DNA of 38,372 bases from Geminicoccaceae bacterium (GCA_007694015.1 RECO01000159.1:1-38372), one strand, 5' to 3'. Positions 40 through 36,775 are shown, counted from the stretch's first letter. The notes: generated from the letters alone by a model not told the origin. Numbers and translations are program-made.

Positions 40-246
40 AGCGAGCAAGGAAAGGGAAGGAAAGGGAAGGCAAGGCAAGGCAAGGCAAGCAAAGGGGGCT
101 TTTGGCCCCCTTTGGAACCCCCAAGCCACAGCGATGGGCGACAGGGCAAGCCCTGTCGCCCATCGCTGTGGCTACTTTCCAACTGCCAGCGGCAACGCCG
201 CTGGCCGGGGGTCCTAGGGGGCCAAAAGCCCCCTAGCCCTTGCCTT
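40..246. repeat. Palindromic modular element, copy A1 (complete)
   Basis: Purine-rich AAGG/CAAGG tract (40-93), then left arm 94-122 (gggggcttttggccccc followed by tttggaaccccc). Inner hairpin A has perfect 23-bp arms at 124-146 and 151-173 with loop caag. A linker actttccaact follows, then inner hairpin B (gccagcggc / aac / gccgctggc, 185-205), and the right arm 207-233 ending gggggccaaaagccccc, which is complementary to the left arm. The pyrimidine-rich mirror flank tagcccttgcctttta runs into the stop of the minus-strand gene. The element lies between two convergent gene ends, so it may also work as a bidirectional terminator, although there is no U-tract. Confidence 0.85.
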
Positions 247-951
247 TTACGCCTCGCCCTTGATGCGGGCGTTTTCATAGCGTTTGCGGTTGCTTTCGTT
301 GGGCGGGTAGAGGCCGGGCAGGGCGGCGCCGGCTTCGACCTCCTTGCCGATCCAGGCTTCGAGGCGTTCCTGTTCGAGGCCGGCGGCGACGACTTCGCCC
401 ACGAGGTCTTGGGGAATGCAGACGGCGCCGTCCTGGTCGCAGACGATGACGTCGCCCGGAAAGACGGCGACGCCGCCACAGCCGATGGGCTGTTCCCAGG
501 CGACGAAGGTGAGGCCCGCGACGGAGGGCGGTGCGGCGGTGCCAGAAGCCCAAACGGGCAGGCCGCTTTTCTCGACGCCTTCGAGGTCGCGGACGACGCC
601 GTCGGTGACCAAGGCGGCCACGCCGCGCTTGGCCATGCGTGCGCAGAGGATGTCGCCGAAGATGCCGGCGTCGGTGACGCCCATGGCATCGACCACGGCG
701 ATGCAGCCTTCGGGCATGGCCTCGATGGCGGCACGCGTGGAGGTGGGCGACGACCAGCTCTCGGGCGTGGCGAGGTCTTCGCGCGCCGGCACGAAGCGCA
801 GCGTGAAGGCAGGCCCGGCGATGCGCTGCCCCTCGCCCACCAGCGGCATCGGTCCGCGCAGCCACACGTTGCGGAGCCCCTTCTTCAACAGCACGGTGGT
901 GAGCGTCGCGGTCGAAATGCGCGTCAGATTGTTCGCGAGTTCGGGGTTCAT
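247..951 (-). CDS. RraA-like / HMG-aldolase family protein
   Basis: Encodes 234 aa of the RraA-like fold, shared by the RNase E regulator RraA and by class II 4-hydroxy-4-methyl-2-oxoglutarate or oxaloacetate aldolases/decarboxylases. The family signature is visible as VTDGVVRD, with Arg121-Asp122 the expected metal/substrate pair, preceded by a glycine-rich FGDILCARMAKRG segment. The ATG at 951 overlaps the stop of pxpA by 4 nt (ATGA), so it is translated with the 5-oxoprolinase genes. The length is some 70 aa above E. coli RraA and fits the metabolic RraA-like enzymes better. The substrate cannot be read from sequence. The operon position suggests a 2-oxo acid or an accessory role in oxoproline or cyclic-amide use; that is inference. 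Confidence 0.85.
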   Translation of the reverse strand: MNPELANNLTRISTATLTTVLLKKGLRNVWLRGPMPLVGEGQRIAGPAFTLRFVPAREDLATPESWSSPTSTRAAIEAMPEGCIAVVDAMGVTDAGIFGDILCARMAKRGVAALVTDGVVRDLEGVEKSGLPVWASGTAAPPSVAGLTFVAWEQPIGCGGVAVFPGDVIVCDQDGAVCIPQDLVGEVVAAGLEQERLEAWIGKEVEAGAALPGLYPPNESNRKRYENARIKGEA

Positions 952-1736
952 GGCTGGGCCTTCGGGTGGGTCAAATGGAAAGGTGCGAGCGTGACGCCCG
1001 CGAGTTCGAGCCGGCGGCGGATCGTCCGCGCCATGGTCAAGGCCTCGGGACCGTCGCCGTGCACGCAGATGGTTTCGGGCCGGACCTTGAGCTTCTGGCC
1101 GTGGATCGAGGTGATGGCCCCTTCCTCCAGCATGCGGAGCACGCGGTCGGCCGCCTGATCGGGGTCGTGGAGGACGGCGCCGGGGAGGTTGCGGGCGACC
1201 AGCGTGCCGTCGTCGTTGTAGGCACGGTCGGCATAGACCTCGCGCACGTGCGGCTGGCCGAGATCGGCTGCGGCCCGCTCCAAGGCGGTCGCGGCCATGG
1301 CGACCACGATGAGGTCGGGATCGCTCGCCCGCACCGCACCGACGAATTGGCTCGCCAGCTCGTCGGACTCGCTCGCCATGTTGCCGAGCGCGCCGTGGCT
1401 CTTGACGTGGGTGACGAAACCGCCGTGGGCGCGGGCGATCGCCTGCAGTGCGCCCAATTGGTAGCGCACCATGGTGGCCAGTTCCTTGGCGGTCAGGCCG
1501 AGCACGCGGCGGCGGCCGAAGCCCTGTTTGTCGTCGAATCCCGGATGGGCGCCGATGCCGACACCGTTGGCGAGTGCGCGCTCGACCGTCTGGTCCATCA
1601 CCACCGGATCGCCCGCATGAAAGCCGCAGGCGATGTTGGCGCTGGTCACGATCTCCAAAAGCGCCTCGTCGGCGCCCATCGACCACGGGCCGAAGCTCTC
1701 GCCGAGATCGGCATTCAGGTCCACGGTGAGCGTCAT
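948..1736 (-). CDS. pxpA: 5-oxoprolinase subunit PxpA (LamB/YcsF family)
   Basis: Encodes 262 aa of the LamB/YcsF family. With PxpB and PxpC it forms the ATP-dependent bacterial 5-oxoprolinase that opens pyroglutamate to glutamate in the cytoplasm. Visible family motifs in order: DLNADLGESFG at the N-terminus, ANIACGFHAGDP, IGAHPGFDDKQGFGRR, HVKSHGALGN, EVYADRAYNDDGTLV and ICVHGDGP. Length is normal for the family. The start overlaps the stop of pxpC by 4 nt and its own stop overlaps the RraA-like start by 4 nt, indicating one translationally coupled operon. The HVKSHGALGN segment differs slightly from the common VKPHGALYN. Confidence 0.95.
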   Translation of the reverse strand: MTLTVDLNADLGESFGPWSMGADEALLEIVTSANIACGFHAGDPVVMDQTVERALANGVGIGAHPGFDDKQGFGRRRVLGLTAKELATMVRYQLGALQAIARAHGGFVTHVKSHGALGNMASESDELASQFVGAVRASDPDLIVVAMAATALERAAADLGQPHVREVYADRAYNDDGTLVARNLPGAVLHDPDQAADRVLRMLEEGAITSIHGQKLKVRPETICVHGDGPEALTMARTIRRRLELAGVTLAPFHLTHPKAQP

Positions 1737-2773
1737 TGGTCGTCCATGTCCCCACTGATGACGCCGTCGATCAAGTTGACGGACAGAAGATAGGCCACGT
1801 CGTCGAGCGAGCGCAGCACCGGCCGCACCGCGGCGGCCAACCCGCCGAGCTCATGACGGTAGCGCTTCAAGGCCTCGACCGCCATGGCCTCGCTCACCGG
1901 CTGGAAGCGAAAGCGGGCACCTGCGGGCAGCTGGGCCAAGGCCGGCAAATCGGCGGTGATGACGGTGGCGAGCCGCGGATAGCCGCCCGTGGGCTGACGG
2001 TCCGCGAGCAGCACGATCGGCTTGCCGTCGCCCGGAATCTGCACGTCGCCCAGGACGACCGCGTCCGAGATGAGCGTCAGGCTGCGTTCGGTCACGAACG
2101 GCGCGCCCTGGAAGTCGAGCTTCATGCCCATGCGGTCGCGCGCGGGCGTCACGGTGAAGGTGGTGGCGGTGAAGCGCTCGCGTTCGGCCGGGGCGAACTC
2201 GCCCGCCTGCACGCCCCAGAGCACCCGCACCACCTTCGGATGCTCCTCCCAAGGGCTATCGAACGTCAGGCCGACCTTGCCCGCCGCGTCGGGGCCGGCG
2301 ACGAGCCGGTCGCCCGCCCGCAGGAGCCGCCCCTGATGCCCGCCGAACACCGCGCGCAGATGCGTCGAGCGCGAGCCCAGCACCCTTGGCACCTCGATCC
2401 CGCCGCCGAGGTGGAGATAGCCATAGACACCGCTGTCCGGCTCACAGCCACCGAGGGCCAGCACCTGGCCGGGCTCGATCACGAAGCTCGTGTTCCAGCG
2501 CACGGGCCGGCCGTCGAGCGACGCCTTGAACGCCGCCCCCGTCAACGCCACCCGCACCGCACCGCCGAAGGCCTCGTACTGGCCGCCCATCCCGACCAGT
2601 TCGACCGCAGCGAGGTCGGGCGCTTGCCCCAGGATGGCCGCACCGGCGACCAGGGCGCGCGGGTCGACGGCACCGCCCTCGGCCACGCCCTGCCGCTGAT
2701 AACCGGGGCGGCCCAAGTCCTGCACCGAGGCGGCGAGCCCGGCCTGGCGAACGATCAGCCCCCGTGCCGTCAC
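1733..2773 (-). CDS. pxpC: 5-oxoprolinase subunit PxpC (KipA/urea-amidolyase-type)
   Basis: Encodes 346 aa of the biotin-dependent carboxyltransferase-like family (KipA, PxpC). The N-terminal QAGLAASVQDLGRPGYQRQG is the hallmark opening (typically G..t.vQDlGR.G..h.Gv..gGa.D). GGYPRLATVI near the C-terminus matches the conserved GGYP region. It partners with PxpB, and the pair resembles the two halves of urea amidolyase/allophanate-hydrolase-like enzymes. It overlaps pxpB upstream and pxpA downstream by 4 nt each. No anomaly seen. Confidence 0.95.
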   Translation of the reverse strand: MTARGLIVRQAGLAASVQDLGRPGYQRQGVAEGGAVDPRALVAGAAILGQAPDLAAVELVGMGGQYEAFGGAVRVALTGAAFKASLDGRPVRWNTSFVIEPGQVLALGGCEPDSGVYGYLHLGGGIEVPRVLGSRSTHLRAVFGGHQGRLLRAGDRLVAGPDAAGKVGLTFDSPWEEHPKVVRVLWGVQAGEFAPAERERFTATTFTVTPARDRMGMKLDFQGAPFVTERSLTLISDAVVLGDVQIPGDGKPIVLLADRQPTGGYPRLATVITADLPALAQLPAGARFRFQPVSEAMAVEALKRYRHELGGLAAAVRPVLRSLDDVAYLLSVNLIDGVISGDMDDQ

Positions 2774-3510
2774 GCGATCGGCTCCACGCGCGCCACCGCC
2801 TCGCCCGCATGGGCGCGGGCCAGGAGCGTTGCCGCCTCTTCGGCACCGATCGCCTCGAATACCAACTCGTCCCCCGCCTGCAGCAAAAACGGCCGTTCGC
2901 GCTCCAAATCGAAGGCGAGAAAGGGGCTCTTACCGATCACCCACCAGCCGGTCGGCACGGTGGTCGAGGTCAACACCGTCTGCCGCACCGCGACCGCAAT
3001 CGAGCCAGGCGGCACCGCCGCCCGCACCTGGTTGCGCCGTGGCAGCGCCCACGCCTCGCCCAACATGCCCGTGTAGACGAAGCCCGGCGCAAAACCGAGC
3101 ATCCGCACCCGCTGCGCCGCCCGGCCATGGTCGGCGATCACCTCGGCCTCGCTCATGCCGAGCCTTGCCGCCACCTCGGCCAAATCGGGCCCGTCCTCGC
3201 CGCCATAATGCACCGGCACGAACCAACGCTTACGGCCCGCGGGCGGCTCCGAGGCCAACCAGTCGCGCTCGGTCAGCCACGCCTGCAGCCGTTCGGCCAG
3301 CCGCTCCGGCGCCAACACCAGCGGATCGAACCGCACCAGCACCGACCGGATCGTGGGCGCCGTCTCGACGATACCTGCCAAGCCGGCAGCGCGGACATGG
3401 GCATCGAACGCGATCACGGCATTGTTGACGGCATCGTCCGTGCGCTCGCCGAAGTCGACGAGCCAAGCGGTATCGCCTGCCAGATGCAGCTTGGGGGGCT
3501 CGGAAATCAT
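2770..3510 (-). CDS. pxpB: 5-oxoprolinase subunit PxpB (KipI family)
   Basis: Encodes 246 aa of the KipI/PxpB family, first gene of the pxpB-pxpC-pxpA-rraA-like operon. Conserved segments are GDTAWLVDFGE near the N-terminus, ERDWLASE, VPVHYGGEDGPDL, the core MLGFAPGFVYTGML, and GWWVIGKSP. The ATG at 3510 (MISEPPKLHL) was chosen because homology begins right after it. The frame stays open further upstream, but there it translates repeat sequence of a palindromic element. No strong Shine-Dalgarno precedes 3510, so the start carries some doubt; another in-frame ATG lies at 3570. Confidence 0.92.
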   Translation of the reverse strand: MISEPPKLHLAGDTAWLVDFGERTDDAVNNAVIAFDAHVRAAGLAGIVETAPTIRSVLVRFDPLVLAPERLAERLQAWLTERDWLASEPPAGRKRWFVPVHYGGEDGPDLAEVAARLGMSEAEVIADHGRAAQRVRMLGFAPGFVYTGMLGEAWALPRRNQVRAAVPPGSIAVAVRQTVLTSTTVPTGWWVIGKSPFLAFDLERERPFLLQAGDELVFEAIGAEEAATLLARAHAGEAVARVEPIA

Positions 3511-3570
3511 GCACCGGAAGGCGCCCCGTCTCGCCCGCCATGTCAAGCACGGAACGTGCTGAGCAGCCAT

Positions 3571-3720
3571 GAGGGGAAGGCAAAAGAGAAAGGGGGGACT
3601 TGATGGTCCCCCCTTGAACCCCCCAGGCAACGGCGTTGCCGTTGCCACTTTTCAAGTGGCAGCGGCAGAGCCGCTGCTCGGGGGTCCTAGGGGGCCAAAA
3701 GCCCCCTAGCCTCTTCCCTG
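3571..3720. repeat. Palindromic modular element, copy A2 (complete)
   Basis: Same layout as copy A1 with different inner stems. Left hairpin ggggggac ttgatg gtcccccc (3592-3613), then ttgaacccccca. Hairpin A is ggcaacggc/gtt/gccgttgcc (3626-3646), the linker is acttttcaagt (3647-3657), and hairpin B is gcagcggc/aga/gccgctgc (3659-3677). The right arm gggggtcctag plus gggggccaaaagccccc lies at 3680-3706, almost identical to the right arm of A1. Purine-rich flank on the left (gaggggaaggcaaaag), pyrimidine-rich on the right. It sits downstream of the thiolase gene and upstream of pxpB on the same strand. The left arm does not match the right arm here, so this copy mixes two arm types. Confidence 0.85.
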
Positions 3721-3737
3721 ACGTTCTTCGCGCCGGC

Positions 3738-4910
3738 TCAGCGCTCCAGGCACATGGCGATGCCCATGCCGCCGCCGATGCAAAGGGTGGTGAGCCCCTT
3801 CTTGGCGTCGCGCTTCTGCATTTCGTGGAGCAGGGTGACGAGCACGCGGGTGCCGGACGCGCCGACCGGGTGGCCGAGCGCGATGGCGCCGCCGTTGACG
3901 TTCACCTTGTTGGTGTCCCAGCCGAGGTCCTTGTTGACCGAAATGGCCTGCGCCGCGAAGGCCTCGTTGGCTTCGATCAGGTCGAGATCCTGTTGGTTCC
4001 AGCCGGCCTTTTCCAGCGCCTTGCGCGACGCGGGGATCGGGCCGGTGCCCATGATCTCCGGCGGCACGCCGGCCTGCGCCCAGGACTTGATGTGGGCGAG
4101 CGGCTTGAGGCCGCGCTTCGCCGCCTCTTCGGCCGTCATGAGGACGACGAACGCGGCACCATCGTTGATGCCGGAGGCGTTGCCGGCAGTGACCGTGCCG
4201 TCCTTCTTGAACGCCGGCGGGATCTTGGCGAGCTGCTCTTTCGACACGCCCATGCGGGGGAACTCGTCGGTGTCGAAGGTGATGTCGCCCTTGCGGTTCT
4301 TGATCACGAACGGAACGATTTCGTCCTTGAACTTGCCGGCCTTGATCGCCGCCTCGGCCTTGTTCTGCGAGTTGGCGGCAAAGCCGTCCTGCTCGTCCTT
4401 GGTGATCTGCCACTTCTCAGCGATGTTCTCGGCGGTGCCGCCCATGTGATAGCCGCAGAACGGGTCCATCAGGGCGTCCTTGAGCATCGTGTCGACGAAC
4501 TTCAAGTCACCCATTTTCTGCCCGGCTCGGAGATGCGCGGCATGCGGCGCCATGCTCATGCTCTCGATGCCGCCGGCAATGACGATGGAGCTGTCGCCTT
4601 CCTTGATCGCCTGGCTGCCCATCGCCACCGTCTTGAGGCCGGAACCGCAGAGCATGTTGATCCCGTAGGCCGGCACCTCGACCGGCATACCGGCACCGAG
4701 TGCCGCTTGGCGCGCCGGGTTCGGACCCTGCGCCGCATTGAGGATCTGACCGACCATGATCTCGGAAACTTCGCCCGGCTCGACACCCGACCGCTCCAAC
4801 ACGGCCTTGATCACGGCGCTACCCAGTTGGTGCGCCGGAACCATGCCCAGCGTCCCGTTGAACGAACCGATGGCGGTGCGTGCGGCTGCGACGATGACGA
4901 CGTCGGTCAT
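3738..4910 (-). CDS. Acetyl-CoA C-acetyltransferase (thiolase)
   Basis: Encodes 390 aa, a normal length for biosynthetic/degradative thiolases (PhaA/AtoB type) that condense two acetyl-CoA to acetoacetyl-CoA or run the reverse. Active-site residues are visible: Cys88 in INMLCGSGL, His347 in [14 protein letters not shown], and Cys377 in [10 protein letters not shown], close to the Zoogloea numbering 89/348/378. NEAFAAQ is also present. The ATG at 4910 has GGGAGAAGGGC just upstream. The gene stands alone, with no phaB or CoA-transferase beside it, so polyhydroxybutyrate synthesis, ketone-body use and amino-acid catabolism all remain possible. A palindromic element follows its stop. Confidence 0.95.
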
Positions 4911-5092
4911 GCCCTTCTCCCAGATCGTGGTGATGCCCCGAATGGCGTTGCGCTAGGCGCTTAAAGAGGAGTGCTCCCCGTGCCAATTGGCTATTTGGTC
5001 CGAGCACCTTTGCGCCTCTCGGTTGCGCAGGCCGGGCAGAAGCGGCAAGAGAAGGCCGCGATCACGGCGCGTCCGCTGGCTTGCTGCACCGC

Positions 5093-6187: not shown

Positions 6188-6206
6188 TCCCGGTCCCCGG
6201 CGCTCC

Positions 6207-7738: not shown

Positions 7739-8277
7739 CGTTCGCCCCTCACCTGCAGCACGCGCTGCAAGTAGATGCCGAGCGAGACGAGCGACGTGGT
7801 CAAGACGACCGCCCCCAACAGCGTGACCGCCGCCTCCGGCAGCCAGCCGGCCGCCACGGCGACGGCGACGAGCAAGAGGGTGAAGGCGGCGGCGGTATGG
7901 ATCTTGCCGATCATCAAGGGCGCCAGGGGCTCGTTCGGGGCGCCCGACACGAGGGCACCCGCCGCCACCAGGACTTCGCGGCCGACCAGGACGGCCACCA
8001 CCCAGGGCGGCAGCGCGCTGGTCCACCAAAGGGTGCCGAGGACGGTGGCGATGAGCAGCCGGTCGGCCGCACTGTCGAGCCAGGAGCCGAGGGTGGTGGC
8101 GCCGAAGCGGCGCGCCAGCCAGCCGTCCAGGGCATCGGAGAGGGCGGCGAACAGAATCAAGCCGAAGGCGATGCCAGCCTCGCCGACCAGCACGAAGTAG
8201 CCCGCTGGCGGGATGGCCAGGATGCGCAGGATGGTGACGATGTTGGCGTAGGGTCGAGCACTCACGGTCGCGGTCAT
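7735..8277 (-). CDS. CDP-alcohol phosphatidyltransferase family membrane protein
   Basis: Encodes 180 aa with several hydrophobic segments, as expected for enzymes that transfer a phosphatidyl group from CDP-diacylglycerol to an alcohol. The signature D-x2-D-G-x2-A-R-x-G-x3-D-x3-D is visible as SDALDGWLARRFGATTLG followed by SWLDSAAD. The length fits PgsA-type phosphatidylglycerophosphate synthases, but paralogues of this family often have other acceptors, so no symbol is given. The ATG at 8277 overlaps the DUF2066 stop by 4 nt and starts where homology begins (MTATVSARPYANIVTILR). Confidence 0.88.
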   Translation of the reverse strand: MTATVSARPYANIVTILRILAIPPAGYFVLVGEAGIAFGLILFAALSDALDGWLARRFGATTLGSWLDSAADRLLIATVLGTLWWTSALPPWVVAVLVGREVLVAAGALVSGAPNEPLAPLMIGKIHTAAAFTLLLVAVAVAAGWLPEAAVTLLGAVVLTTSLVSLGIYLQRVLQVRGER

Positions 8278-9404: not shown

Positions 9405-9466
9405 GGGCTCGAAACCTATGGTGCTCGGCGACTGCGTCCAGCCGCTCTCTTATCGAGCCCATCCCG

Positions 9467-13521: not shown

Positions 13522-13584
13522 GGCACAGCCTCCGTCAACATGACGTCCAGCTGATCAACCTGTCATCCCCACTCACCCCGGACA

Positions 13585-13735
13585 AGGTGGCGGCGGCGTC
13601 AGCCGTCGCTTGGGGGGTGCCGGGGGGACCATCAAGTCCCCCCGTTTCTTGCTTACCCCTTACCTACCCCTTCGCGCCCCTTGCCTTGCGCTTCGCGCCC
13701 TTTGCCTGCCTCTTCGCGCGCCTTGATCCACCCGC
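13585..13735. repeat. Palindromic modular element, copy A3 (right half)
   Basis: Hairpin B type gcggcggc/gtca/gccgtcgc (13590-13609, one G-T pair) is followed by ttggggggtgcc and the terminal hairpin ggggggac catcaa gtcccccc (13622-13643). That hairpin is the exact reverse complement of the left hairpin of copy A2. The flank is a pyrimidine-rich tract of repeated ttacccc/cgcgcccttgcc units (13644-13731), which overlaps the 3' end of holC. There is no recognisable left arm or hairpin A. Confidence 0.75.
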
Positions 13736-23683: not shown

Positions 23684-24121
23684 ATGCGGACGCGCAAGGC
23701 GCAAAGGTTGGTGCTGGTGGTGGGCGCACTCGGGCTCCTGGGCGCTGCAACCGGCCTCGTCCTCGCCTCGCTCGGTCAAAACGTCGCCTTCTTCAGTTCG
23801 CCCACCGCCATCCTCACCGGCGAGACCAAACCGGGCACCCGGCTGCGGCTGGGCGGGATCGTCCTCGAAGGCACCGTCGTCCATCAGGACGTGCAGGTGC
23901 GCTTTGCGATCACCGACTACGCCCACGACATCCCGGTCCTCTACACGGGCATTCTCCCCGACCTCTTCCGCGAAGGCCAAGGCGTTGTTGCCATCGGCCA
24001 GGTCGACGCCGACGGCATCTTCCAAGCCGACGAAATCCTGGCCCGCCACGACGAAGGCTACATGCCGCCCGAGGTGAGCCAGGCGCTCAAGGACGCCGAA
24101 CACTGGCTCCCTGAGCTCTAG
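23684..24121 (+). CDS. ccmE: Cytochrome c maturation heme chaperone CcmE
   Basis: Encodes 145 aa. CcmE is anchored by one N-terminal helix (LVLVVGALGLLGAATGLVLA) and carries heme covalently in the periplasm. The heme-binding region ILARHDEGYMPPEV has His122 and Tyr126, at the same four-residue spacing as E. coli His130/Tyr134. The ATG at 23684 follows GAGGAGAGACGAC. The other ccm genes usually adjacent (ccmF, ccmH) are missing here. The TAG stop (24119-24121) lies in the terminal CTAG of a MITE-like element, so the very end of the gene was set by that insertion. Confidence 0.94.
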   Translation: MRTRKAQRLVLVVGALGLLGAATGLVLASLGQNVAFFSSPTAILTGETKPGTRLRLGGIVLEGTVVHQDVQVRFAITDYAHDIPVLYTGILPDLFREGQGVVAIGQVDADGIFQADEILARHDEGYMPPEVSQALKDAEHWLPEL

Positions 24122-24284
24122 CGCGTTTCCCGGTTAGGTAGCGCACGGGCCATCCCTCACCCCCGCCCGGCCACCCATGGCATCGTACACTCGTGGGTGG
24201 CCGGCCACCCCAAGCTGCAAAACAGCTTGGGGACCCCGGCGGGCGGGGGTGCGGGATGGTCAAGCCTTTCGGGAAACGCTCTAG
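24118..24284. mobile_element. MITE-like element, family B copy 1 (inverted, with extra hairpin)
   Basis: Bounded by CTAG at 24118-24121 and 24281-24284. The left end agcgcgtttcccggttagg and right end tcaagcctttcgggaaacgc are the two distinct ends of the family in reverse order relative to copies 2-4. The core is a palindrome around ggccacccatgg..cgtgggtggcc with an additional hairpin ccccaagctgcaaaacagcttgggg (about 24212-24236). There is no coding capacity. The CTAG flanks fit the YTAR-type target duplication of IS5-group elements, which is inference. Confidence 0.7.
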
Positions 24285-24400
24285 TGCACAGGCGCATTCG
24301 GAGCGTTCCGCTCCGGATGCGCCGTTGATGCACTAACTCCATGGAATCGTGCAGCTTTGGCGCAGTCGGACGTGATTCGTCCGACTGCGCCGCTGCACTA
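24282..24400. repeat. Two tandem palindromes with TGCAC borders
   Basis: The first unit is tagtgca (24282-24288), stem ggcgcattcggagcg / ttc / cgctccggatgcgcc (24291-24323, one mismatch), tgcacta (24329-24335). The second unit is gtgcag (24349-24354), stem ggcgcagtcggacg / tgatt / cgtccgactgcgcc (24359-24391, perfect), ctgcac (24393-24398). Both share the ggcgca.tcgga pattern and the same outer border but differ in stem detail. They lie in the 5' region of msrB and may be a degraded mobile element or a transcript structure. Confidence 0.65.
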
Positions 24401-24469
24401 GCTGCGTCGGCCCGTGGCCAAAGTGGCGGCGTTGCACTACCTCTGGCGTGCCGAACGAGGAGGTACGCG

Positions 24470-24877: not shown

Positions 24878-24917
24878 TCGAGCGGCAACGGCCGACGCGC
24901 CTGTGCAGCCGTTTGGC

Positions 24918-25083
24918 GTTAGCGCGTTTTCCGAAAGGCTTGACCATCCCGCACCCCCGCCCGGCCACTTATGGAATCGTCCACTCGTGGGTGGCCAGCC
25001 ACCCCAAGCTGCAAAGCAGCTTGGGGACCCCGGCGGGCGGGGGTGCGGGATGGGCGAAGCGCAACCTAAACGGCACACGCGTT
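24918..25083. mobile_element. MITE-like element, family B copy 2 (core flipped, with extra hairpin)
   Basis: Left end ttagcgcgttttccgaaagg with gcttgaccatcccgcaccc, right end gggatgggcgaagcgcaacc to cacacgcgtt. The core has the same genomic orientation as in copy 1 and also carries the extra ccccaagctgc..gcagcttgggg hairpin, but the outer arms are reversed relative to copy 1. The core is thus inverted with respect to its own ends. It occupies most of the msrB to small-gene gap. Confidence 0.7.
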
Positions 25084-25139
25084 GGCGCCGTTGCCGTGCC
25101 CTGAGCCGCGAGTTACCTTCCGAGCGAAGGAGAGCGACG

Positions 25140-26020: not shown

Positions 26021-27730
26021 ATGTCGTCATCGTCGCTCGACGCCCTCGTCGAGGCCTATCGTCACGGCCAGCTCGACCGCCGCAGCTTCATCCGCAGCGC
26101 CACCGCCACCGGCGTCACCCTCGGCGTGGCGACGAGCCTCGCCACGCTGCACGGCAACACCGCCCATGCCAGCGCCACGACCGCCGTCGACGCCATCGCT
26201 CCAGCCTATGATTTCATCGTCGTCGGCTCGGGCTCGGCCGGAGCCGCCCTCGCCCACCGCCTCGCCACCACCAGCGACGCCCGCGTCCTGGTCTTGGAGG
26301 CCGGCGGTCCGGACGACATCCCCGAAATCCACGACCCGCGGCAATGGGGTGCGGCCCTCGGCACGGCGGCGACCAAGTGGTTTCAAACCACGCCCCAGCC
26401 GCACACCCTGGACCGCATCCACAACTGGCCCCGCGGCCACGTGCTCGGCGGCACCAGTGCCCTCAACGCCATGGTCTTCGCCCGCGGCCACCGCAGCGAC
26501 TTCGACCACTGGGCCTATGAGGGTAATGCCGGCTGGGACTACGCAAGCGTGCTGCCCCACTTCAAGGCCTTCGAAGACTACGAGGGCGGGGCGAGCGAGC
26601 TCAGGGGCAGCGGTGGCCCCCTGCACGTCTCCAAGCCGCAGCCGGGCAAGCGCCATCCGGGCGCCGAGGCGTTCATGGCCGCCGCCGCGGACATGGGCTT
26701 TCCCGAAACGCCGTCGATCAACGGCCCGGTGATGGAGGGCCCGGCCTGGGTCGACCTGACCATCAAGGACCAAAGGCGGCAGTCGACCGCCGTCGCCTTC
26801 CTCAAGCCGGCGATGGCCAGGCCCAACCTCACCGTCCTGACCGACGCGCCGGTGACCTCCTTGACCTTCGACGGCAGCCGCTGCACCGGTGTCAACTATC
26901 TGCACGGCGGTGATCTCCGCAGCGTCCGCGCCGAGCAGGAAGTCATCCTCGCCGCCGGCGCCATCGACAGCCCGCGCTTGTTGCTGCTCTCGGGTATCGG
27001 CCCCGCCGACGAACTCGGGCCCCTCGGCATCACCCCGGTCGTCGACCTCGCGGGCGTCGGCCGCAACATGCAGGACCACGTCCTCGGCGGTGGTCCCAAC
27101 TACGTCGCCCCGCATGCCCTGCCCGTCTCCGAGTACAACCACTCCGAGGTCTATATGTGGTGGCGCTCGGATGCGCGGCTGATCGCCCCGGACGTCATCG
27201 TCCTCTACGTCAGCGTGCCCTTTGCGACCGACGCGTTCGAGCTCGCCGGCGGCGAGCACGGCTGGTGCATGCTCTCGGGCCTCGCCCGTCCCTCCAGCCG
27301 CGGCTCCTTGCGTCTCGCCTCGGCCGACTTCGCCGACCCGCCGATCGTCGACCCCAACTACCTTGCCACCGAGCAGGACCGCCGCGCCTTCGCCTACGCC
27401 ACGGAACTCGCCCGCGAACTCGCCCTGCACCCGGCCTATGCCGACCAGCGTGCCCGTGAAGTCCTGCCCGGCGCCGACGTCCAGGTGGGCACGCCCGCCT
27501 GGGACGAATTCGTCAAGAAATCCGCCCACACCTACTTCCACCCGACCTCCACCTGCCGGATGGGCATCGACCAGATGGCGGTGGTGGACCCGTCCTTGCG
27601 CGTCTACGGTATCGAAGGTCTGCGCGTCGCCGATGCCTCGGTCATGCCATCCATCACCACCAGCAACACCAACGCCCCCAGCATCATGATCGGCTGGAAG
27701 GCGGCGGAACTGATCCGCGAACGGCGCTAG
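26021..27730 (+). CDS. GMC-family FAD oxidoreductase with Tat signal
   Basis: Encodes 569 aa. The N-terminus has a twin-arginine motif (DRRSFIR, Arg20-Arg21) and a hydrophobic stretch, with cleavage likely after AHA near residue 50, so a folded periplasmic flavoenzyme is expected. The Rossmann loop is VGSGSAGAALAHRL at about residue 68. GMC signatures are HVLGGTSALNAMVFARG and AGAIDSPRLLLLSGIGP. His507 (HPTSTCRMG) and Asn551 (SNTNAPS) are 44 apart, as His466/Asn510 in choline oxidase. The substrate is an alcohol, unknown. A strong GGGGAGG site precedes the ATG. The TAG stop is the border of a MITE-like element. Confidence 0.93.
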   Translation: MSSSSLDALVEAYRHGQLDRRSFIRSATATGVTLGVATSLATLHGNTAHASATTAVDAIAPAYDFIVVGSGSAGAALAHRLATTSDARVLVLEAGGPDDIPEIHDPRQWGAALGTAATKWFQTTPQPHTLDRIHNWPRGHVLGGTSALNAMVFARGHRSDFDHWAYEGNAGWDYASVLPHFKAFEDYEGGASELRGSGGPLHVSKPQPGKRHPGAEAFMAAAADMGFPETPSINGPVMEGPAWVDLTIKDQRRQSTAVAFLKPAMARPNLTVLTDAPVTSLTFDGSRCTGVNYLHGGDLRSVRAEQEVILAAGAIDSPRLLLLSGIGPADELGPLGITPVVDLAGVGRNMQDHVLGGGPNYVAPHALPVSEYNHSEVYMWWRSDARLIAPDVIVLYVSVPFATDAFELAGGEHGWCMLSGLARPSSRGSLRLASADFADPPIVDPNYLATEQDRRAFAYATELARELALHPAYADQRAREVLPGADVQVGTPAWDEFVKKSAHTYFHPTSTCRMGIDQMAVVDPSLRVYGIEGLRVADASVMPSITTSNTNAPSIMIGWKAAELIRERR

Positions 27731-27855
27731 CGGGTTTTCTGAAATGCTTGACCATCCCGCACCCCCGCCCGGACGCCCACGAGTGTACCCTTGCATGGGC
27801 GGCCGGGAGCGGGTGCGGGATGGGCGAAGCTCAACCCAAACCGAATACGCGCTAG
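27727..27855. mobile_element. MITE-like element, family B copy 3
   Basis: Bounded by CTAG at 27727-27730 and at 27852-27855, each within gcgctagcgg-like context. Left end gcgggttttctgaaatgctt then gaccatcccgcacccccgcc. The core is a short palindrome cgcccacgagtgtac..tgcatgggcgg without the extra hairpin of copies 1 and 2. Right end gggatgggcgaagctcaacc to atacgcg. It separates the GMC gene from the deacetylase gene and provides the GMC stop codon. Confidence 0.7.
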
Positions 27856-27902
27856 CGGAACGGGCCTGCGTTCCGTGACGCCCCAGGAAGGGAGCCACGT
27901 TC

Positions 27903-30984: not shown

Positions 30985-31115
30985 AGCAGGAGCCTCGATG
31001 GTGGAGCGAAGCGCGTATACAGACCGGAGATGGAAGGGGACGCAAGGCTCTCGCACCTTGCCCATCTGGCGGGCATCGTGCTCAATGGCTATGCGGACTG
31101 CGCAGCCTTGGCTTC

Positions 31116-31131
31116 CAACGCGCAAGCGTTG
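31116..31131. promoter_or_regulatory. Inverted repeat in the racemase/cyclase divergent gap, possible operator
   Basis: caacgc (31116-31121), spacer gcaa, gcgttg (31126-31131), a perfect 6-bp palindrome midway in the 253-nt divergent region 30985-31237. Such a site could bind a dimeric regulator controlling both directions, but no regulator gene is in the window and no clear -35/-10 boxes were found. A second gttgcaaacg-like half site occurs near 31148. Weak evidence; a chance palindrome is possible. Confidence 0.25.
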
Positions 31132-31237
31132 CGAGGGTGGCACGGCCGTTGCAAACGAACGGCACCAACGAAGACGATGACTGGGTGAGGACGATGATCG
31201 GCAACGGTGAGACCAGCAGCGTGCGGAGGCTTGGCCC

Positions 31238-31930
31238 GTGCGCTTGATCGACCTTTCCCGCGAAATCCGCCACCGCGGCCCCACCCTGCCCAACCATCCC
31301 CCGGTCACCATCGTCCCCTACTGGACGCACGACGATGCGCGCGAAGCGGAGGGCGTTGCCTTCACCATCGCCACCCTATTCATGACGCTCGGCGACCACA
31401 GCGGCACGCACATCGACGCGCCCCGTCACTTCGACGCCTCGCCGGATGCCTTGTCCATCGACCAGATGCCGTTGGAGCGCTTCTTCACCGAGGCGGTCTG
31501 CCTGGATCTCTCCCACAAACCCCTGCGCAGCGACATCGAGGTGGCCGACCTCGAGGAGGCCGAAGCAGCATCCGGCGTCACCATCCAGCCCGGCGACACC
31601 GTCCTTCTGCACATGGGCGTCGAGGCGCGGCTCGGCGAAGGTCCGGGCTATCTGACCGACTTTCCGGGCCTCACCAAGGCAAGCGCCGAGTGGCTGGGCC
31701 ACAAGGGCGTCGGTATCTTCGGCGTCGAGGCGCTGAGCCCCGGCCGGCCCTTCAAGAACAATTTCGAAGTCCACATCGCCTGCCGCGATTTGGGTTTCAC
31801 GCACATCGAGGGCCTCGTGAACCTCGACAAGCTCGTCGGCCAGGGGCGGTTTCGCTTCATCGGCTTTCCGTTGCGGATCAAGGGCGGCACCGGCAGCCCG
31901 ATCCGCGCCGTCGCCTGGCTCGACGGCTGA
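31238..31930 (+). CDS. Cyclase-family (PF04199) metal hydrolase
   Basis: Encodes 230 aa of the family that includes kynurenine formamidase KynB and isatin hydrolase. The metal-binding motif is intact: GDHSGTHIDAPRHF (H-x-GTH-x-D-x-P-x-H-F). The N-terminal RLIDLSREI and the IQPGDTVLLHMG segment also fit. It hydrolyses a formamide, lactam or similar bond; the substrate is unknown. The start is GTG 31238 with GGAGG 9 nt upstream. The TRAP genes follow after 47 nt on the same strand, suggesting that the imported compound or a derivative is its substrate. Confidence 0.92.
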   Translation: MRLIDLSREIRHRGPTLPNHPPVTIVPYWTHDDAREAEGVAFTIATLFMTLGDHSGTHIDAPRHFDASPDALSIDQMPLERFFTEAVCLDLSHKPLRSDIEVADLEEAEAASGVTIQPGDTVLLHMGVEARLGEGPGYLTDFPGLTKASAEWLGHKGVGIFGVEALSPGRPFKNNFEVHIACRDLGFTHIEGLVNLDKLVGQGRFRFIGFPLRIKGGTGSPIRAVAWLDG

Positions 31931-31977
31931 CCCGTCCCCACTTCGTTCCCACCCGCTTCATCCGAGGGAGATAGCCC

Positions 31978-33027
31978 ATGCGCATCCATGCCACGGCGAC
32001 GTTGGCCGCTGCGGCGGCGTTGTTCGCCACCACCACCGCCGGCGCCGAGACCATCCGCCTCAACGTTTCCGGGCTGGTGTCGACGCACATCCACCACACC
32101 GCCTTGGAGCGCGCCTTTTTCGAGGGCTTGGCCGAGCGCACTGGGCTCGACGTCCGGGTGAACTTCAACCCGCTCGACGTCATCGGCGTCACCATGGACG
32201 ACACCATGCGCATGGCCGGTGACGGCACCTTCGACATCGTGCAGTCGACCATCGGCAGCGTCGCCCGCGACGACACCTTCCTGGAAGGCATGGACCTCAT
32301 GGGGGTGTCGCCGACCTTGGCCGACCTGCGCGAGGCCGTGGACGCCTTCCGCCCGGCCCTTACCGCGCGCGCCGAAGAACGCTTGAACGTCAAGGTCCTG
32401 GCCGTCTGGCCGTTCGGCCAGCAGCACGTGTTCTGCAAGGAGCCGATTTCGAGCCTGACCGACCTCCGCGGCAAGCGGGTGCGCAGCTTCAGCCGCAGCA
32501 TGTCGGCGGTGCTGGAATATGTCGGCGCCACGCCGGTTTCGATGCCGTTCGCCGAGGTCTACCCGGCGTTGCAGCGGGGTGTGGTCGAATGCGCGATCAC
32601 CTCGATCACCTCGGCCAATAGCGGCAGCTGGCCCGAGATCACGACGCACGTCCTCGCCATCGCGCTCTCGAACGGCATCAACGCCCACTTCATGAATCTC
32701 GACAGCTGGAACGCGCTGTCGCCGGAGGCCCAAGAGGCCTTCACCGAGGCCTTCAAGGAGGCGGAGGACGCGTTCTGGGATCTCACCGAGAGCATGTACG
32801 ACGACGCCATGCGCTGCAGCACCGGCCTCGAGCCCTGCGAACACTACAACCGCTTCAACATGACCCGGGTCGATCCGAGCGAGGCCGATCTGGCGCTGCT
32901 CGCCGAGGCCGTCGACAACGTGGTGCTCGACGTCTGGGCGAATGCCTGCCAGCCCCGCGCCGAATGCGTCGAGATCTGGAACGCGACCGTCGGTGCCGTC
33001 CGCGGCTTCGAGATGGCGGCGAACTAA
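31978..33027 (+). CDS. TRAP transporter solute-binding protein (DctP family)
   Basis: Encodes 349 aa with a signal peptide ending ATTTAGAE. DctP features: TFDIVQSTIG, a KVLAVWPFGQQHVFCK strand, SSLTDLRGKRVRSFSRSMS with the conserved Arg that binds the ligand carboxylate, and PFAEVYPALQRGVVECAITS. It is longer than average at the C-terminus, with several Cys (CSTGLEPCEHYN, NACQPRAECVE) that may form disulphides. The ATG has GGGAG upstream. First gene of a dctP-dctQ-dctM unit, separated from dctQ by a large hairpin array. Confidence 0.93.
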   Translation: MRIHATATLAAAAALFATTTAGAETIRLNVSGLVSTHIHHTALERAFFEGLAERTGLDVRVNFNPLDVIGVTMDDTMRMAGDGTFDIVQSTIGSVARDDTFLEGMDLMGVSPTLADLREAVDAFRPALTARAEERLNVKVLAVWPFGQQHVFCKEPISSLTDLRGKRVRSFSRSMSAVLEYVGATPVSMPFAEVYPALQRGVVECAITSITSANSGSWPEITTHVLAIALSNGINAHFMNLDSWNALSPEAQEAFTEAFKEAEDAFWDLTESMYDDAMRCSTGLEPCEHYNRFNMTRVDPSEADLALLAEAVDNVVLDVWANACQPRAECVEIWNATVGAVRGFEMAAN

Positions 33028-33029
33028 GA

Positions 33030-33131
33030 AAGCGCTTCGGGGGGCTTTTGCCCCCCCCGCGCCCCCCAGGCAGCGGCAAGGCCGCTGCCACTTTTCGAAG
33101 TTGCCGTGGCGCCAGCCACGGCCGGGGGTTT
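33030..33131. repeat. Palindromic modular element, copy A4
   Basis: Left arm cggggggcttttgcccccccc (33038-33058), hairpin A ggcagcggc/aag/gccgctgcc (33069-33089), linker acttttcgaagtt (33090-33102), hairpin B gccgtggc/gcca/gccacggc (33103-33122), then the right arm beginning gggggtttcc. The plan is the same as A1 and A2, again with its own stem sequences. The right arm continues into five tandem hairpin units. Confidence 0.85.
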
Positions 33132-33340
33132 CCAAGGGGGCATAAAGCCCCCTTGGCTTTCCCTCACCCTTCCCTTGGGGGGCATAAAGCCCCCTTGGCT
33201 TTCCCTCACCCTTCCCTTGGGGGGCATAAAGCCCCCTTGGCTTTCCCTCACCCTTCCCTTGGGGGGCATAAAGCCCCCTTGGCTTTCCCTCACCCTTTCC
33301 TTGGGTGGCCAAAAGCCCCCTTGGCTTCCTCCCTTACCTG
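33132..33340. repeat. Five tandem 42-bp hairpin units between dctP and dctQ
   Basis: The first unit is a perfect palindrome ccaagggggc/ataaa/gcccccttgg (33132-33156). The cataaag loop recurs at 33141, 33183, 33225 and 33267, and as ccaaaag at 33309, each exactly 42 bp apart. Between hairpins lies ctttccctcacccttccc, the pyrimidine flank of the family. The fifth unit carries the gtggccaaaagccccc arm variant found in A1 and A2. The array looks like tandem amplification of the right arm of copy A4. It may stabilise or separate dctP mRNA from the permease mRNA. Confidence 0.9.
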
Positions 33341-33354
33341 TTGGAGTGGGTCTC

Positions 33355-33924
33355 ATGCTCGATCGGGTTCACGCGTTTCTCGAAGGCACGACCCGGTTGG
33401 GGGCGATCCTGGCGGGCTATGCGCTGTTGGGGTTGGCGCTGGCCATTTGCGCCGAGATCGCGCTCCGGCGCTTGGCCAATTTCTCGTTGCAAGGCGTGGA
33501 CGAGGTCGGCGGCTACGTGCTCGCCGGCATCTCGGGCTTTGCCTTTGCCTTCGGCTTGATGCAGCGCGCGCACACCCGGATCGACATCGTGTTGCGGCTG
33601 ATGCCGGCCTGGGGTCAGGCGACCTTGAACCTCTTGGCGGCCGTGATCTTTGCCGGCATTGCCGTGTTCATGGCCGTGCGCGCCCATGCCACGCTGGACC
33701 GGAGCCTGCAGCTCGGAAGCCTCGCCTCCACCCCGTTGCAAACACCCTTGTGGATCCCCCAGACCATCTGGCTGGTCGGGCTCACCCTGTTCGCCGTGGT
33801 CGCCGTGTTCCTGGCTTTTCGCGCCGTCGTCGCCGTGTTCGAGGGCACGCGGGCGGTCAACGCCATCGCCGGGCCGCCGACGCTGCAGGAGGAAATCGAC
33901 GCCGAGCGGAGTGACCGGCCATGA
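33355..33924 (+). CDS. TRAP transporter small permease (DctQ family)
   Basis: Encodes 189 aa with four hydrophobic segments (LAGYALLGLALAICAEIAL, YVLAGISGFAFAFGL, LLAAVIFAGIAVFMAV, IWLVGLTLFAVVAVFLAF). QGVDEVGGYVLAGI and QRAHTRIDIVL match the family pattern with the conserved Arg-Asp. The ATG at 33355 follows GGAG. The frame upstream is open through the repeat array only because the unit length is a multiple of three. dctM overlaps its stop by 4 nt. Confidence 0.92.
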   Translation: MLDRVHAFLEGTTRLGAILAGYALLGLALAICAEIALRRLANFSLQGVDEVGGYVLAGISGFAFAFGLMQRAHTRIDIVLRLMPAWGQATLNLLAAVIFAGIAVFMAVRAHATLDRSLQLGSLASTPLQTPLWIPQTIWLVGLTLFAVVAVFLAFRAVVAVFEGTRAVNAIAGPPTLQEEIDAERSDRP

Positions 33925-35222
33925 TCGACGCTGCGGGCGCTCTCGGCGGCTTCGCCTTCCTCTTGATCCTGATGTTCCTAGGATTGCCGGTGGGCGTCGC
34001 CATCCTGGTCATCAGCATCGCCGGGGCCGCCATCTTCATCGGCTGGCGGCCGGTGATGGCCTACGGCACCCAGACCTGGTCCTATCTCAACAACTTCGTG
34101 CTCACCGCCGTGCCCTTGTTCATCCTGTTGGGTGAATTGCTGCTGCGCGCGGGCCTGACCGAGAAGATGTACACCTCGCTCTCGGACTGGGTGCGGGGCA
34201 TGCCCGGACGGCTTTTGCACACCAACGTCTTTGCCTGCGGCCTGTTCTCGGCCGTTTCGGGCTCGTCGGTGGCGACCGCCGCCACCATCGGCACGGTGGC
34301 GCTGAAGGACTTCTCCAAGCGCGGCTACAACGACCGGCTGGTGCTCGGTACGATCGCGGCGGGTGCCACCCTCGGCATCCTGATCCCGCCGAGCATCAAC
34401 CTGATCATCTACGGCGCGATGACCAACACCTCGATCGGCCGCCTGTTCATGGCCGGTGTGGTGCCGGGTTTGCTGCTGATCGGCGTGTTCGTGATCGCCA
34501 TCATGCTGATCGCCGCCGCCCGGCCGAAGCTGATCGGCGGCGCCGACGCGGTCGATCCCTTGCCCGTGCGCTTGAAGCGGCTGCGCTATTTGCTGCCGCC
34601 GCTTGCCATCTTCGTCATGGTGATGGCGACGATCTATCTCGGCTGGGGCACCCCCACCGAAGCCGCTGCCGTCGGCGTCGGCATGGCGCTGGTGCTGGCC
34701 GCCGCCAATCGCCGTTTGAGCTTCCATTATCTGCACGAGGTGTTCGTCTCGACGGTGCGGCTGACGGCGATGATCCTGTTCATCCTGACCGCCGCACTCT
34801 TCATGAACTTCATCATCGGCTTCCTCGGCGTCCCACGCGCCATGACACAGCTGGTGAGCGATCTCGGCCTGACGGTGGCCCAGACCATCATGGTCTTGAT
34901 CATCTTCTACTTCGTGCTCGGCCTCTTCATGGAGGCCTTGGCGATGATGGTGGCGACGGTGCCGGTCATCTTCCCCCTGATCATCTTTCTCGGCATCGAC
35001 CCGATCTGGTTCGGCATCTTTCTCGTCTTGATGATGGAGGTGGCACTGATCACCCCGCCGATGGGGCTCAATCTCTACGTGGTGCAGGGCATTCGCGGGC
35101 GCGGCTCGATCAACGACGTGTTCATCGGCGTCATCCCGTTCATCTTCTGCATGTTCGTCGTCGTGGCGCTGATCATCGCCTTCCCCGGCATCGTCACCTG
35201 GCTGCCGAATTTGATGTTCTGA
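33921..35222 (+). CDS. TRAP transporter large permease (DctM family)
   Basis: Encodes 433 aa, the sodium-coupled translocating subunit with about 12 membrane segments. Characteristic stretches: TAVPLFILLGELLLRAGL, FACGLFSAVSGSSVATAATI, GATLGILIPPSINLIIYGA, GWGTPTEAAAVG and ALITPPMGLNLYVVQGI. The ATG overlaps the dctQ stop (ATGA). It completes the importer; ligand identity should follow the DctP protein. Confidence 0.95.
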   Translation: MIDAAGALGGFAFLLILMFLGLPVGVAILVISIAGAAIFIGWRPVMAYGTQTWSYLNNFVLTAVPLFILLGELLLRAGLTEKMYTSLSDWVRGMPGRLLHTNVFACGLFSAVSGSSVATAATIGTVALKDFSKRGYNDRLVLGTIAAGATLGILIPPSINLIIYGAMTNTSIGRLFMAGVVPGLLLIGVFVIAIMLIAAARPKLIGGADAVDPLPVRLKRLRYLLPPLAIFVMVMATIYLGWGTPTEAAAVGVGMALVLAAANRRLSFHYLHEVFVSTVRLTAMILFILTAALFMNFIIGFLGVPRAMTQLVSDLGLTVAQTIMVLIIFYFVLGLFMEALAMMVATVPVIFPLIIFLGIDPIWFGIFLVLMMEVALITPPMGLNLYVVQGIRGRGSINDVFIGVIPFIFCMFVVVALIIAFPGIVTWLPNLMF

Positions 35223-35226
35223 GCCC

Positions 35227-36459
35227 GTGTCCGAACCCAACGCCCTCGACGCGGCGGCCCAACACCAGGGGCTAGGCGCCTTCACCCAACTCGTGGACCG
35301 GCTGGGTGCCGGGCCGGTCATGGCGGTGAAGGACAACATCGACGTCAGGGGCCTTGTCACCGCCGCCGGCATCGGGGCCTGGCGCGACCGGGTCGCCACC
35401 GCCGATGCCGAGGTGGTCGCCCGCTGGCGCCGGGCCGGCGGCGAAATACTCGGCAAGACCAACATGCACGAGGGTGCCCTCGGCGTGACCACCGACAACG
35501 CCGCCTTCGGCCGCTGCCACAACCCGGCCGTGCCCGGTGCCGTGCCCGGCGGCTCCAGCGGCGGGTCGGCCGCGGCCGTCGCCGCCTGCATCGTCGACGT
35601 TGCCCTCGGCACCGACACCATGGGCTCGGTACGCATCCCGGCGAGCTATTGCGGTATCGTCGGCTTCAAGCCGGGCTTCGCCGTGCTCCCCACCACCGGC
35701 GTCGTCCCGCTGAGCTGGACCCTGGACCACGTCGGCCTCCTCGCCCGCGACGTGACGGCGGCCCGCGTCGCCTTCGCCCAGCTCGCTGGCCCGGCCCCAA
35801 GACGCAGCGAGACGCCGAGCCAGCGCCGCTTTCTGGTCCCCTCACAACTCGACGACCTGGAACTGGCCCCGAGCGTGCGCCAAGCCTTCGAGGCCGCCCT
35901 TCGGGCCTTGGCCGCCCAGGGCCACACGGTAACCCAGAGCCGCCTCGACGGCTGGCAAGCGGACGAACTGCGCCGCGACGCCCTCCTCGTTGCCGAGGTC
36001 GAAGGTGCGGTGCTCTTTCAAGACCTCATGGCGGAGCCTTCGAGCGACATCACCCCCGCCTTCCGCGCCCTGCTCGACTACGGCCGCCGCCTGCCCGCCC
36101 CGCGCTACGCCCTCGCTTTGCACCGCTGCCAGAGCTTCGGCCAACGCCTGCAACGGCAACTGCGCGACTACGACGCCTGCCTCCTCCCCACCACGCCTGC
36201 CCCGGCCTTCCCCCACGACACCAAGCCCCCCGCCGACGTCGCCACCCTGACGGTGCCCGCCAACGCCGCCGGCCTGCCCGCCCTCTCCCTCCCCCTCCCC
36301 GTCACCGGCCCACCCATCGGCCTCCAACTGATGACCGCCCCCGAACGCGACCACGAACTGTTGACGCTGGCAGGTGAGGTGGAAGCCGTGATCGGGCGAG
36401 AGGAAAAGAAGAAGGAAGCCAAGGGGGCTTTTGGCCCCCTTGGAAACCCCCGAGCCTGA
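35227..36459 (+). CDS. Amidase-signature enzyme (second), C-terminus from repeat
   Basis: Encodes 410 aa. The triad is intact: Lys35 (MAVKDNIDVRG), cis-Ser110 (PGGSSGGSAAAVAA) and Ser134 (GTDTMGSVRIPASYCG). The N-terminus is about 40 residues shorter than in the first amidase. It starts at GTG 35227, 4 nt after dctM, so it is co-transcribed with the TRAP importer and probably acts on the imported compound or a product. The last 18 or so residues (REEKKKEAKGAFGPLGNPRA) are encoded by the flank and left arm of palindromic copy A5, with the stop inside the element. Confidence 0.93.
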   Translation: MSEPNALDAAAQHQGLGAFTQLVDRLGAGPVMAVKDNIDVRGLVTAAGIGAWRDRVATADAEVVARWRRAGGEILGKTNMHEGALGVTTDNAAFGRCHNPAVPGAVPGGSSGGSAAAVAACIVDVALGTDTMGSVRIPASYCGIVGFKPGFAVLPTTGVVPLSWTLDHVGLLARDVTAARVAFAQLAGPAPRRSETPSQRRFLVPSQLDDLELAPSVRQAFEAALRALAAQGHTVTQSRLDGWQADELRRDALLVAEVEGAVLFQDLMAEPSSDITPAFRALLDYGRRLPAPRYALALHRCQSFGQRLQRQLRDYDACLLPTTPAPAFPHDTKPPADVATLTVPANAAGLPALSLPLPVTGPPIGLQLMTAPERDHELLTLAGEVEAVIGREEKKKEAKGAFGPLGNPRA

Positions 36460-36501
36460 TCGATTGCGGGACGTGCGTCGCACGTCCCGCAATCGATCAG
36501 G
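36405..36501. repeat. Palindromic modular element, copy A5 (left half)
   Basis: Purine-rich flank gaggaaaagaagaaggaagcc, left arm gggggcttttggccccc (36423-36439) then ttggaaaccccc. Hairpin A has perfect 22-bp arms, cctgatcgattgcgggacgt plus gc (36455-36476) and its complement (36480-36501), with loop gtc. The left arm equals that of A1, while the hairpin A stem is unrelated. No right arm follows directly. Confidence 0.85.
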
Positions 36502-36698
36502 CCAGTTGGAGACTGGGGGAAAGGGCTGCGACCAACGGCGCAAAAGGTATCCGGGAAAGATTTTTCAAGTCATGCATAGACAGGAGAAAATGCGTTCTTG
36601 GGTTCGTTCGGCAATTCGGGAGTTCGACGTTTATGCCGCGTCGCGCCGAGCCGCACCGGGCACTCTCCATCGATTCTGCTTGCCTTCCTAAATCAAGT
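36502..36698. other. Spacer between two half-elements, with a possible 33-39 aa reading frame
   Basis: This 197-nt stretch separates the left half (A5) and right half (A6) of the palindromic family. It is visibly richer in A/T in 36540-36620 than its surroundings. A frame from ATG 36590 (AGGAG 4 nt upstream) or ATG 36572 runs to TAA 36689-36691, encoding a basic peptide MRSWVRSAIREFDVYAAS and further. I do not recognise it, and chance is a fair explanation. Confidence 0.25.
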
Positions 36699-36775
36699 CC
36701 GACGGCCGTGGCCGTCGGTCGGGGGGTGCAGGGGGCCAAGCCCCCTGCTTCCTGCCTTCCTCTACCCACCCTTGA
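36682..36775. repeat. Palindromic modular element, copy A6 (right half)
   Basis: tcaagt (the linker end seen in A2), hairpin B ccgacggc/cgtg/gccgtcgg (36699-36718), tc, then right arm ggggggtgcagggggccaag ccccc (36721-36745) and a pyrimidine flank cttcctgccttcctctaccc. It lacks the left arm and hairpin A, which are present 200 nt upstream as A5. Confidence 0.8.

Follow-up and report, generated by a model that had tools for sequence, protein, structure and literature searches.

Modular palindromic repeats with covarying, near-perfectly paired stems in the genome of a Geminicoccaceae bacterium

Introduction

Dispersed bacterial repeats known as REPINs (repetitive extragenic palindromic doublets forming hairpins) consist of conserved inverted ends and a variable spacer that keeps its hairpin potential; compensatory changes are common in them, and they are intergenic, present in many copies and restricted to particular lineages (Bertels and Rainey 2011, PMC3116915). 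The bacterial interspersed mosaic elements (BIMEs) of Escherichia coli, with palindromic units (PU) of types Y, Z1 and Z2, and the GTAG and CGTC superfamilies of repetitive extragenic palindromic (REP) sequences are likewise built of modular half-unit types placed head-to-head, are found preferentially downstream of genes, avoid divergent gaps and form tandem arrays (PMC3733652). Here, a family that resembles both was studied in a stretch of 38,372 nucleotides from a Geminicoccaceae bacterium (GCA_007694015.1, RECO01000159.1:1-38372), hereafter the window, in which six copies, A1 to A6, are present, and in the rest of the host genome.

How a stem can change in sequence and yet remain perfectly paired has long been asked; compensation via G·U intermediates and copying of one arm into the other predict different mispairs. 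Perfect arms that drift in concert with few intermediate mismatches have been described for template-switch hairpins (PMC8794818), Nematomorpha mitochondrial palindromes (PMC6649704) and nematode inverted repeats (PMC1803023), and template switching or repeat conversion was proposed for them; maintenance of stems by template switching is thus already published (PMC8794818). Unlike these systems, which concern rRNA, mitochondrial genes and eukaryotic gene pairs, the present family is bacterial and dispersed, and a single genome contains tens of copies in parallel. Non-coding DNA here provides dozens of copies of the same stem, diverged and in some cases truncated, and the family is a good natural test system for the concerted evolution, or correction, of palindrome arms.

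The elements appear to be non-autonomous REPIN/BIME-like repeats of this lineage, whose stems would be kept paired mainly by template-switch correction within the palindrome; this reading is given about an even chance of being right. Integron attC sites also lie after genes and have conserved outer boxes around a variable self-complementary middle, with extrahelical bases in their stems. Unlike attC sites, the perfect stems of the present family have no extrahelical bases, and no cassette array was seen.

Results and discussion

Extent of the family

The host genome assembly (3.81 Mb, 322 contigs) is 93% complete and fragmented at repeats; counts of genomic context and element anatomy are from 1.66 Mb, or 44% of the genome. 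The pattern of the outer G/C hairpin, GGGGGCNNNNNGCCCCC, occurs 343 times in the genome, as compared with 5 times for the reversed control, and A2 used as a query gave 69 matches. With a covariance model based on 13 elements with long stems, 127 matches were found in the same genome and none in 31 other genomes of the order. Sequence searches revealed no homologue in these 31 relatives, in the remainder of a class-wide sample of 385 genomes, or in plasmids, phages and viral contigs. The exact arm, present 144 + 134 times in the host genome, was absent from 398 other sampled genomes of the phylum, and no part of the window matched Rfam above the gathering threshold. The palindrome family is real, large and, as far as searched, private to its lineage. 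An earlier note, made from the window sequence alone, had proposed a covariance-model search of the genome and its relatives, and had named a lack of further copies outside the window as evidence against its view; such copies proved abundant in the genome, and the relatives gave none.

Build of the elements

The portion of the genome analysed yielded 52 complete elements and 210 half-units. Each half-unit includes a conserved G/C outer hairpin, a CCCCC/GGGGG clamp and an inner hairpin, which is either short (8–9 bp) or a long stem typically of 22–25 bp. There are three types of half-unit, joined as inverted head-to-head pairs. Type 1 is CCAAGGGGGCTTTTGGCCCCCTTGGAAACCCCC followed by a long stem, type 2 is CTAGGGGGCTTTTGGCCCCCTAGGACCCCC followed by a short hairpin, and type 3 is GGGGGGACTTGATGGTCCCCCC with a short hairpin. 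The combinations found in complete elements are h1-h1 (25), h1-h3 (17), h3-h1 (9) and h3-h3 (1), and type 1 ends are sometimes amplified in tandem together with their flanking tract, as in A4 and at other loci.

The outer arms are common to the copies, which have a purine tract on their left and a pyrimidine tract on their right, as the earlier note had described: purines make up 94% of the left flank and 8% of the right flank where these are nearest the element (51 complete elements), and the bias fades over about 30 nt. The tails of elements lying between tandem genes are 78–80% pyrimidine on the sense and antisense sides alike; hence, the asymmetry belongs to the element. The flanks were also considered as locus-specific extensions of the palindrome and this was rejected, as similarity within a locus and between loci is equal on average (6.86 and 6.65, respectively), with one outlier, L038. 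At that locus (about 7740-7910) the purine flank and the pyrimidine flank match each other perfectly as inverted repeats over 20 nt beyond the element, whose two arms are of different types; this is a possible trace of arm copying.

In the 52 complete elements, two inverted conserved ends enclose a variable spacer able to form hairpins, as in REPINs; where elements were aligned, the ends are invariant and the spacer covaries. In the broad sense of BIMEs, the family is dispersed, intergenic and a mosaic of a small number of palindromic units. Compensating hairpins between conserved ends are already known from REPINs, and what is found here is unusually long and unusually well-paired stems. Unlike in REPINs, the conserved ends are themselves G/C hairpins, the inner stems reach 25 bp and are mostly perfect, and purine/pyrimidine flanks are present. 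Published BIME and REP stems are of 5–13 bp (PMC3733652), and E. coli REPs keep conserved mismatches, unlike the long stems of the present family. The REP tags are lacking: GTAG or CTAC directly precedes none of 186 inner hairpins, while directly after them GTAG was found in no case and CTAC in two; CGTC is never terminal before the hairpins and follows 6 of the 186, and is absent as a tag, though the short stems are of 8–9 bp, a length expected of the CGTC type, which also has a loop of 4–5 nt. A search for the REP-associated tyrosine transposase (RAYT; TnpA-REP, a Y1 transposase, PF01797) gave no match in the host genome, with five control genomes positive, a negative of little weight for a genome 93% complete and fragmented at repeats, the more so as REPtrons can be lost. 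As neither the GTAG tag nor RAYT was found, the family is filed as REPIN-like only and not as REP/RAYT. A reverse transcriptase as driver, the other enzyme that the earlier note had suggested looking for, was not found in the host genome. Of features expected for miniature inverted-repeat transposable elements (MITEs), inverted ends are present, and the limits of the elements are too blurred by the purine tracts for target-site duplications to be called; the genome has one DDE_Tnp_1 gene, which is not linked to an element.

Pairing in the long stems

The long-stem set includes 32 stems, after two spurious or duplicate rows were removed by eye. Twenty-one of the stems are perfect, and only 16 mispairs occur in about 735 pairs, while the identity of the arms between copies has a median of 52%, as compared with 42% for shuffled arms. 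In 22 aligned stems of equal length 97.4% of the cells are paired, and both sides change at 20 of the 23 pairs. The covariation score of these stems is 0.81, as compared with 0.17 after shuffling and at most 0.15 with slid partners, and the observed value was reached in none of 500 shuffles. Ten stems read later (7 perfect, 5 mispairs in 234 pairs) conform to this pattern, though they were found via the covariance model, which favours paired stems. Covariation is also seen in the first pairs at the base of the outer hairpin, where the second pair is AT in 56, TA in 43 and CG in 35 copies, with 135 of 138 Watson–Crick and no G-T, and the short hairpins covary at several positions. The earlier note's central observation, that pairing is kept while the sequence changes, is strongly supported by these data. 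Its contention that ordinary REP/BIME copies lose their pairing was too strong, compensatory changes having been reported as common in REPIN spacers (PMC3116915).

When the elements are aligned, the outer arms and clamp are invariant, hairpin B is conserved and the long stem is variable with partly conserved positions. The closest stems are one or two compensated base pairs apart. All the stems can be aligned into a single lineage and are not unrelated; within it, single base pairs change and not whole units. The earlier note, which described the inner stems as different in sequence, had named a single lineage with decaying pairing as evidence against its view, and of these the lineage was found and the decay was not. 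An identical 23-bp stem is present at two loci on different contigs, C145 and C147, and the separate loci L127 and L050 have a stem with mismatches in common. Thus, dispersal appears to copy the stem unchanged, without replacement of the whole unit. Regeneration or replacement of the whole stem at each dispersal, by snap-back synthesis or palindrome completion, would give perfect stems differing in sequence and could have left the inverted flank at L038, but is very unlikely given the position-specific conservation within one lineage, the single compensated pairs that separate near-identical stems, and the recurrence of the same stem at separate loci, in one pair with its uncorrected mismatches. 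Of the two options offered in the earlier note, some form of copying is therefore better supported than selection for RNA structure (see below), while its version in which whole stems are regenerated fails.

It is scarcely credible that the elements are an ordinary MITE or REP family paired by chance or by assembly. Ordinary MITE-like repeats are present in the same genome, and repeats disturb the assembly, with 44 element sites at the edges of contigs or extracted stretches; but covariation is above every shuffle, and a CTAG-flanked family taken as control is opposite in pattern, having near-identical copies with inherited mispairs, as is ordinary.

Capture of stem arms from elsewhere in the genome was considered and rejected, as 14-mers of real arms occur at most four times over both strands, two of these from the hairpin itself, and no source is evident.

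Location at gene 3' ends and possible selection at the RNA level

Genes were called by codon usage, and the calls are approximate. Of 164 sites, only two are inside called genes, both at the 3' extremity, and in addition to the 44 edge sites 118 were classified as intergenic. Among gaps of at least 60 bp, these sites fill 35 of the 82 between convergent genes, 70 of the 351 between tandem genes and 13 of the 175 between divergent genes (chi-square p about 2e-10). In tandem gaps, 59 of 70 sites are nearer the upstream stop; the median distance to this stop is 30 bp, as compared with 97 to the next start. The earlier note placed all copies at gene 3' ends; this is true of the window, where they lie between convergent or tandem genes or, for A5, at the extreme 3' end of an open reading frame (ORF), and in the genome as a whole is a strong tendency.

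This bias could be read as selection at the RNA level, in which the elements would be transcribed 3' ends or bidirectional terminators, the stems would protect or end mRNAs, and compensatory evolution would keep them paired. The outgoing tails are pyrimidine- and T-rich (T 0.35–0.44, as compared with 0.16 downstream of genes generally), and at a few sites the outer hairpins score as terminator-like. However, the T-rich tails are symmetric whatever the gene direction, which marks them as a property of the element and not of a directional terminator, there are no long U runs, and avoidance of promoters accounts for the 3' bias equally well. The mispairs also argue against it. In rRNA, G·U is involved in 78.5% of two-step compensations (PMC8794818), and RNA selection should leave such intermediates. 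In a manual tally pooled over the 32 and the ten later stems, about 5 mispairs are G-T, about 6 A-C and about 10 other; there is no G-U excess, and the mispairs resemble raw mutations rather than tolerated G·U steps, which favours arm-to-arm correction. Furthermore, the mean loss of folding energy from a single mismatch is 4.5 of 49 kcal/mol, or 9%. This is a weak target for selection, and selection for stability should tolerate such a mismatch. Selection at the RNA level as the cause of the pairing is accordingly judged improbable.

Proposed arm-to-arm correction

Arm-to-arm templated correction fits the data better than selection for RNA structure and is favoured. The unit consists of two inverted half-units, and its copies spread and are retained chiefly at positions shortly after genes. 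A point mutation arising in one arm would be eliminated, or transferred to the other arm, by a switch of template within the palindrome during replication (quasipalindrome correction); the palindrome would in this way repair itself while its sequence drifts freely. The hairpins may also act at mRNA 3' ends, in stabilisation or weak bidirectional termination, which would not be needed for the pairing. Truncated elements point in the same direction, as they are still paired: in seven such stems, five are perfect and 2 mispairs occur in 164 pairs. A5, for instance, has lost its right half, and by hairpin scan, covariance model and sequence its long stem remains perfect.

A mobilising enzyme (an HUH transposase, integrase or other) that reads folded single-stranded DNA could also maintain the stems if only well-paired copies spread and compensations were selected, as proposed for REPINs. 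The REPIN-like layout, the compensatory changes reported for REPINs and the invariance of the outer arms are consistent with such selection, recognition of DNA would give Watson–Crick pairs with no preference for G-U, and the identical stem on C145 and C147 points to recent spread. Against it, no RAYT/Y1 transposase was found in the genome in a search with positive controls, perfect stems are kept in truncated halves, and the mismatched stem of L127 and L050 shows that a mismatch is no bar to dispersal. This explanation is considered unlikely, though it retains some weight.

Several observations weigh against arm-to-arm correction. Selection on single-stranded DNA hairpins would give a similar picture, and the choice between correction and selection depends on mispair types and truncated copies, which are few (21 mispairs and 7 truncated stems). 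In the absence of a close relative, no ancestral mutation or correction event was observed. Correction is not universal, as an inherited A-C mismatch is widespread in the 8-bp hairpins (24 of 130 copies) and L127 and L050 retain theirs. The loops of the long stems are A-rich and not inverted, so that they lack the inverted loop which some template switches leave as a footprint, and the flank of L038, which looks like arm copying, is a single case.

In a stricter form, the long arms would evolve in concert by replication template switching without structural selection, as a self-repairing selfish palindrome, and correction would depend on stem length, 23-bp stems being corrected while 8-bp ones may keep inherited mismatches; this is conceivable but on balance doubtful. 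If arm-to-arm correction is confirmed in strains, covariation in bacterial repeats alone would be no proof of a selected RNA structure, a caveat that bears on every covariation-based search for non-coding RNA.

Copies in the window

Sequence reading and the repeat scan bore out the palindromic copies reported in the window. The full build of outer hairpin, hairpin A, linker, hairpin B and inverted outer hairpin, which had been ascribed to all six copies, is present in A1, A2 and A4; A3 and A6 each consist of one half-unit and lack hairpin A, and A5 is a left half only. All are on the (+) strand.

In A1 (91..236), outer hairpin 94-110 is followed by long hairpin A at 124-173, with 24 bp and a 2-nt loop; then come linker 174-184, hairpin B at 185-205 and inverted outer hairpin 217-233, as established by sequence reading, hairpin scan and a covariance-model match of 115 bits. 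A2 (3588..3710) has type-3 outer hairpin 3592-3613 and short hairpin A 3626-3646, followed by linker 3647-3657, hairpin B at about 3658-3677 and type-2 outer hairpin 3690-3706; it was recognised from sequence reading, the linker and its 69 genome matches. In A4 (33038..33155), identified by sequence reading, repeat scan (direct and inverted matches) and covariance model, the outer hairpin at about 33041-33058 precedes hairpin A 33069-33089, linker 33090-33101, hairpin B 33103-33122 and type-1 outer hairpin 33136-33152. It is extended by a tandem array (33136..33327, +) of the outer hairpin and its pyrimidine tract, with a period of 42 and 4.6 copies. The linker acttttcaagt, described as conserved in the earlier note, is exact in A2 only, with the variants ACTTTCCAACT in A1 and ACTTTTCGAAGT in A4, and A5 lacks it. 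Together with its flanking bases in A2 (CCACTTTTCAAGTGG) it forms a small stem-loop of its own; thus, five hairpins follow one another in a complete element, all within a single imperfect palindrome.

The right half-unit A3 (13584..13646) includes a short hairpin at about 13588-13607 and type-3 outer hairpin 13622-13643, and was assigned by sequence reading and its inverted match to A2. A6 (36699..36748), also a right half-unit and known from sequence reading, has its short hairpin at 36699-36718, and an outer hairpin lies within about 36729-36748. The left half-unit A5 (36419..36502) consists of type-1 outer hairpin 36423-36439 and long hairpin 36454-36502 (24 bp, 1-nt loop). As the earlier note had observed, the stems of A1 and A5 are perfectly paired and differ in sequence. 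An ORF at 35227-36459, putatively amidase-like as judged from its translation, crosses the outer hairpin of A5 into the long stem, and its last codons and stop would come from A5.

Contig ends and other repeats

Contigs C161, C81, C214, C12 and C298 of the host assembly start or stop inside or near elements of the family, and hence a mobilising gene flanked by elements may be missing from the assembly.

The CTAG-flanked control repeat is palindromic, MITE-like and 119 bp long, with CTAG on both sides; the copies number 13, one in the window (24282-24400) and 12 in the other extracted loci. The CTAG of type-2 arms has served as the insertion site of several copies, for example at L048, L125 and L041. 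A third palindromic family, with ends CCATCCCGCACCCCCGCCCGG and CCGGGCGGGGGTGCGGGATGG, has 40 copies in the 1.66 Mb and in places adjoins the CTAG family; in the window it is found at 24118-24288, 24915-25088, 27723-27858 and 37239-37374.

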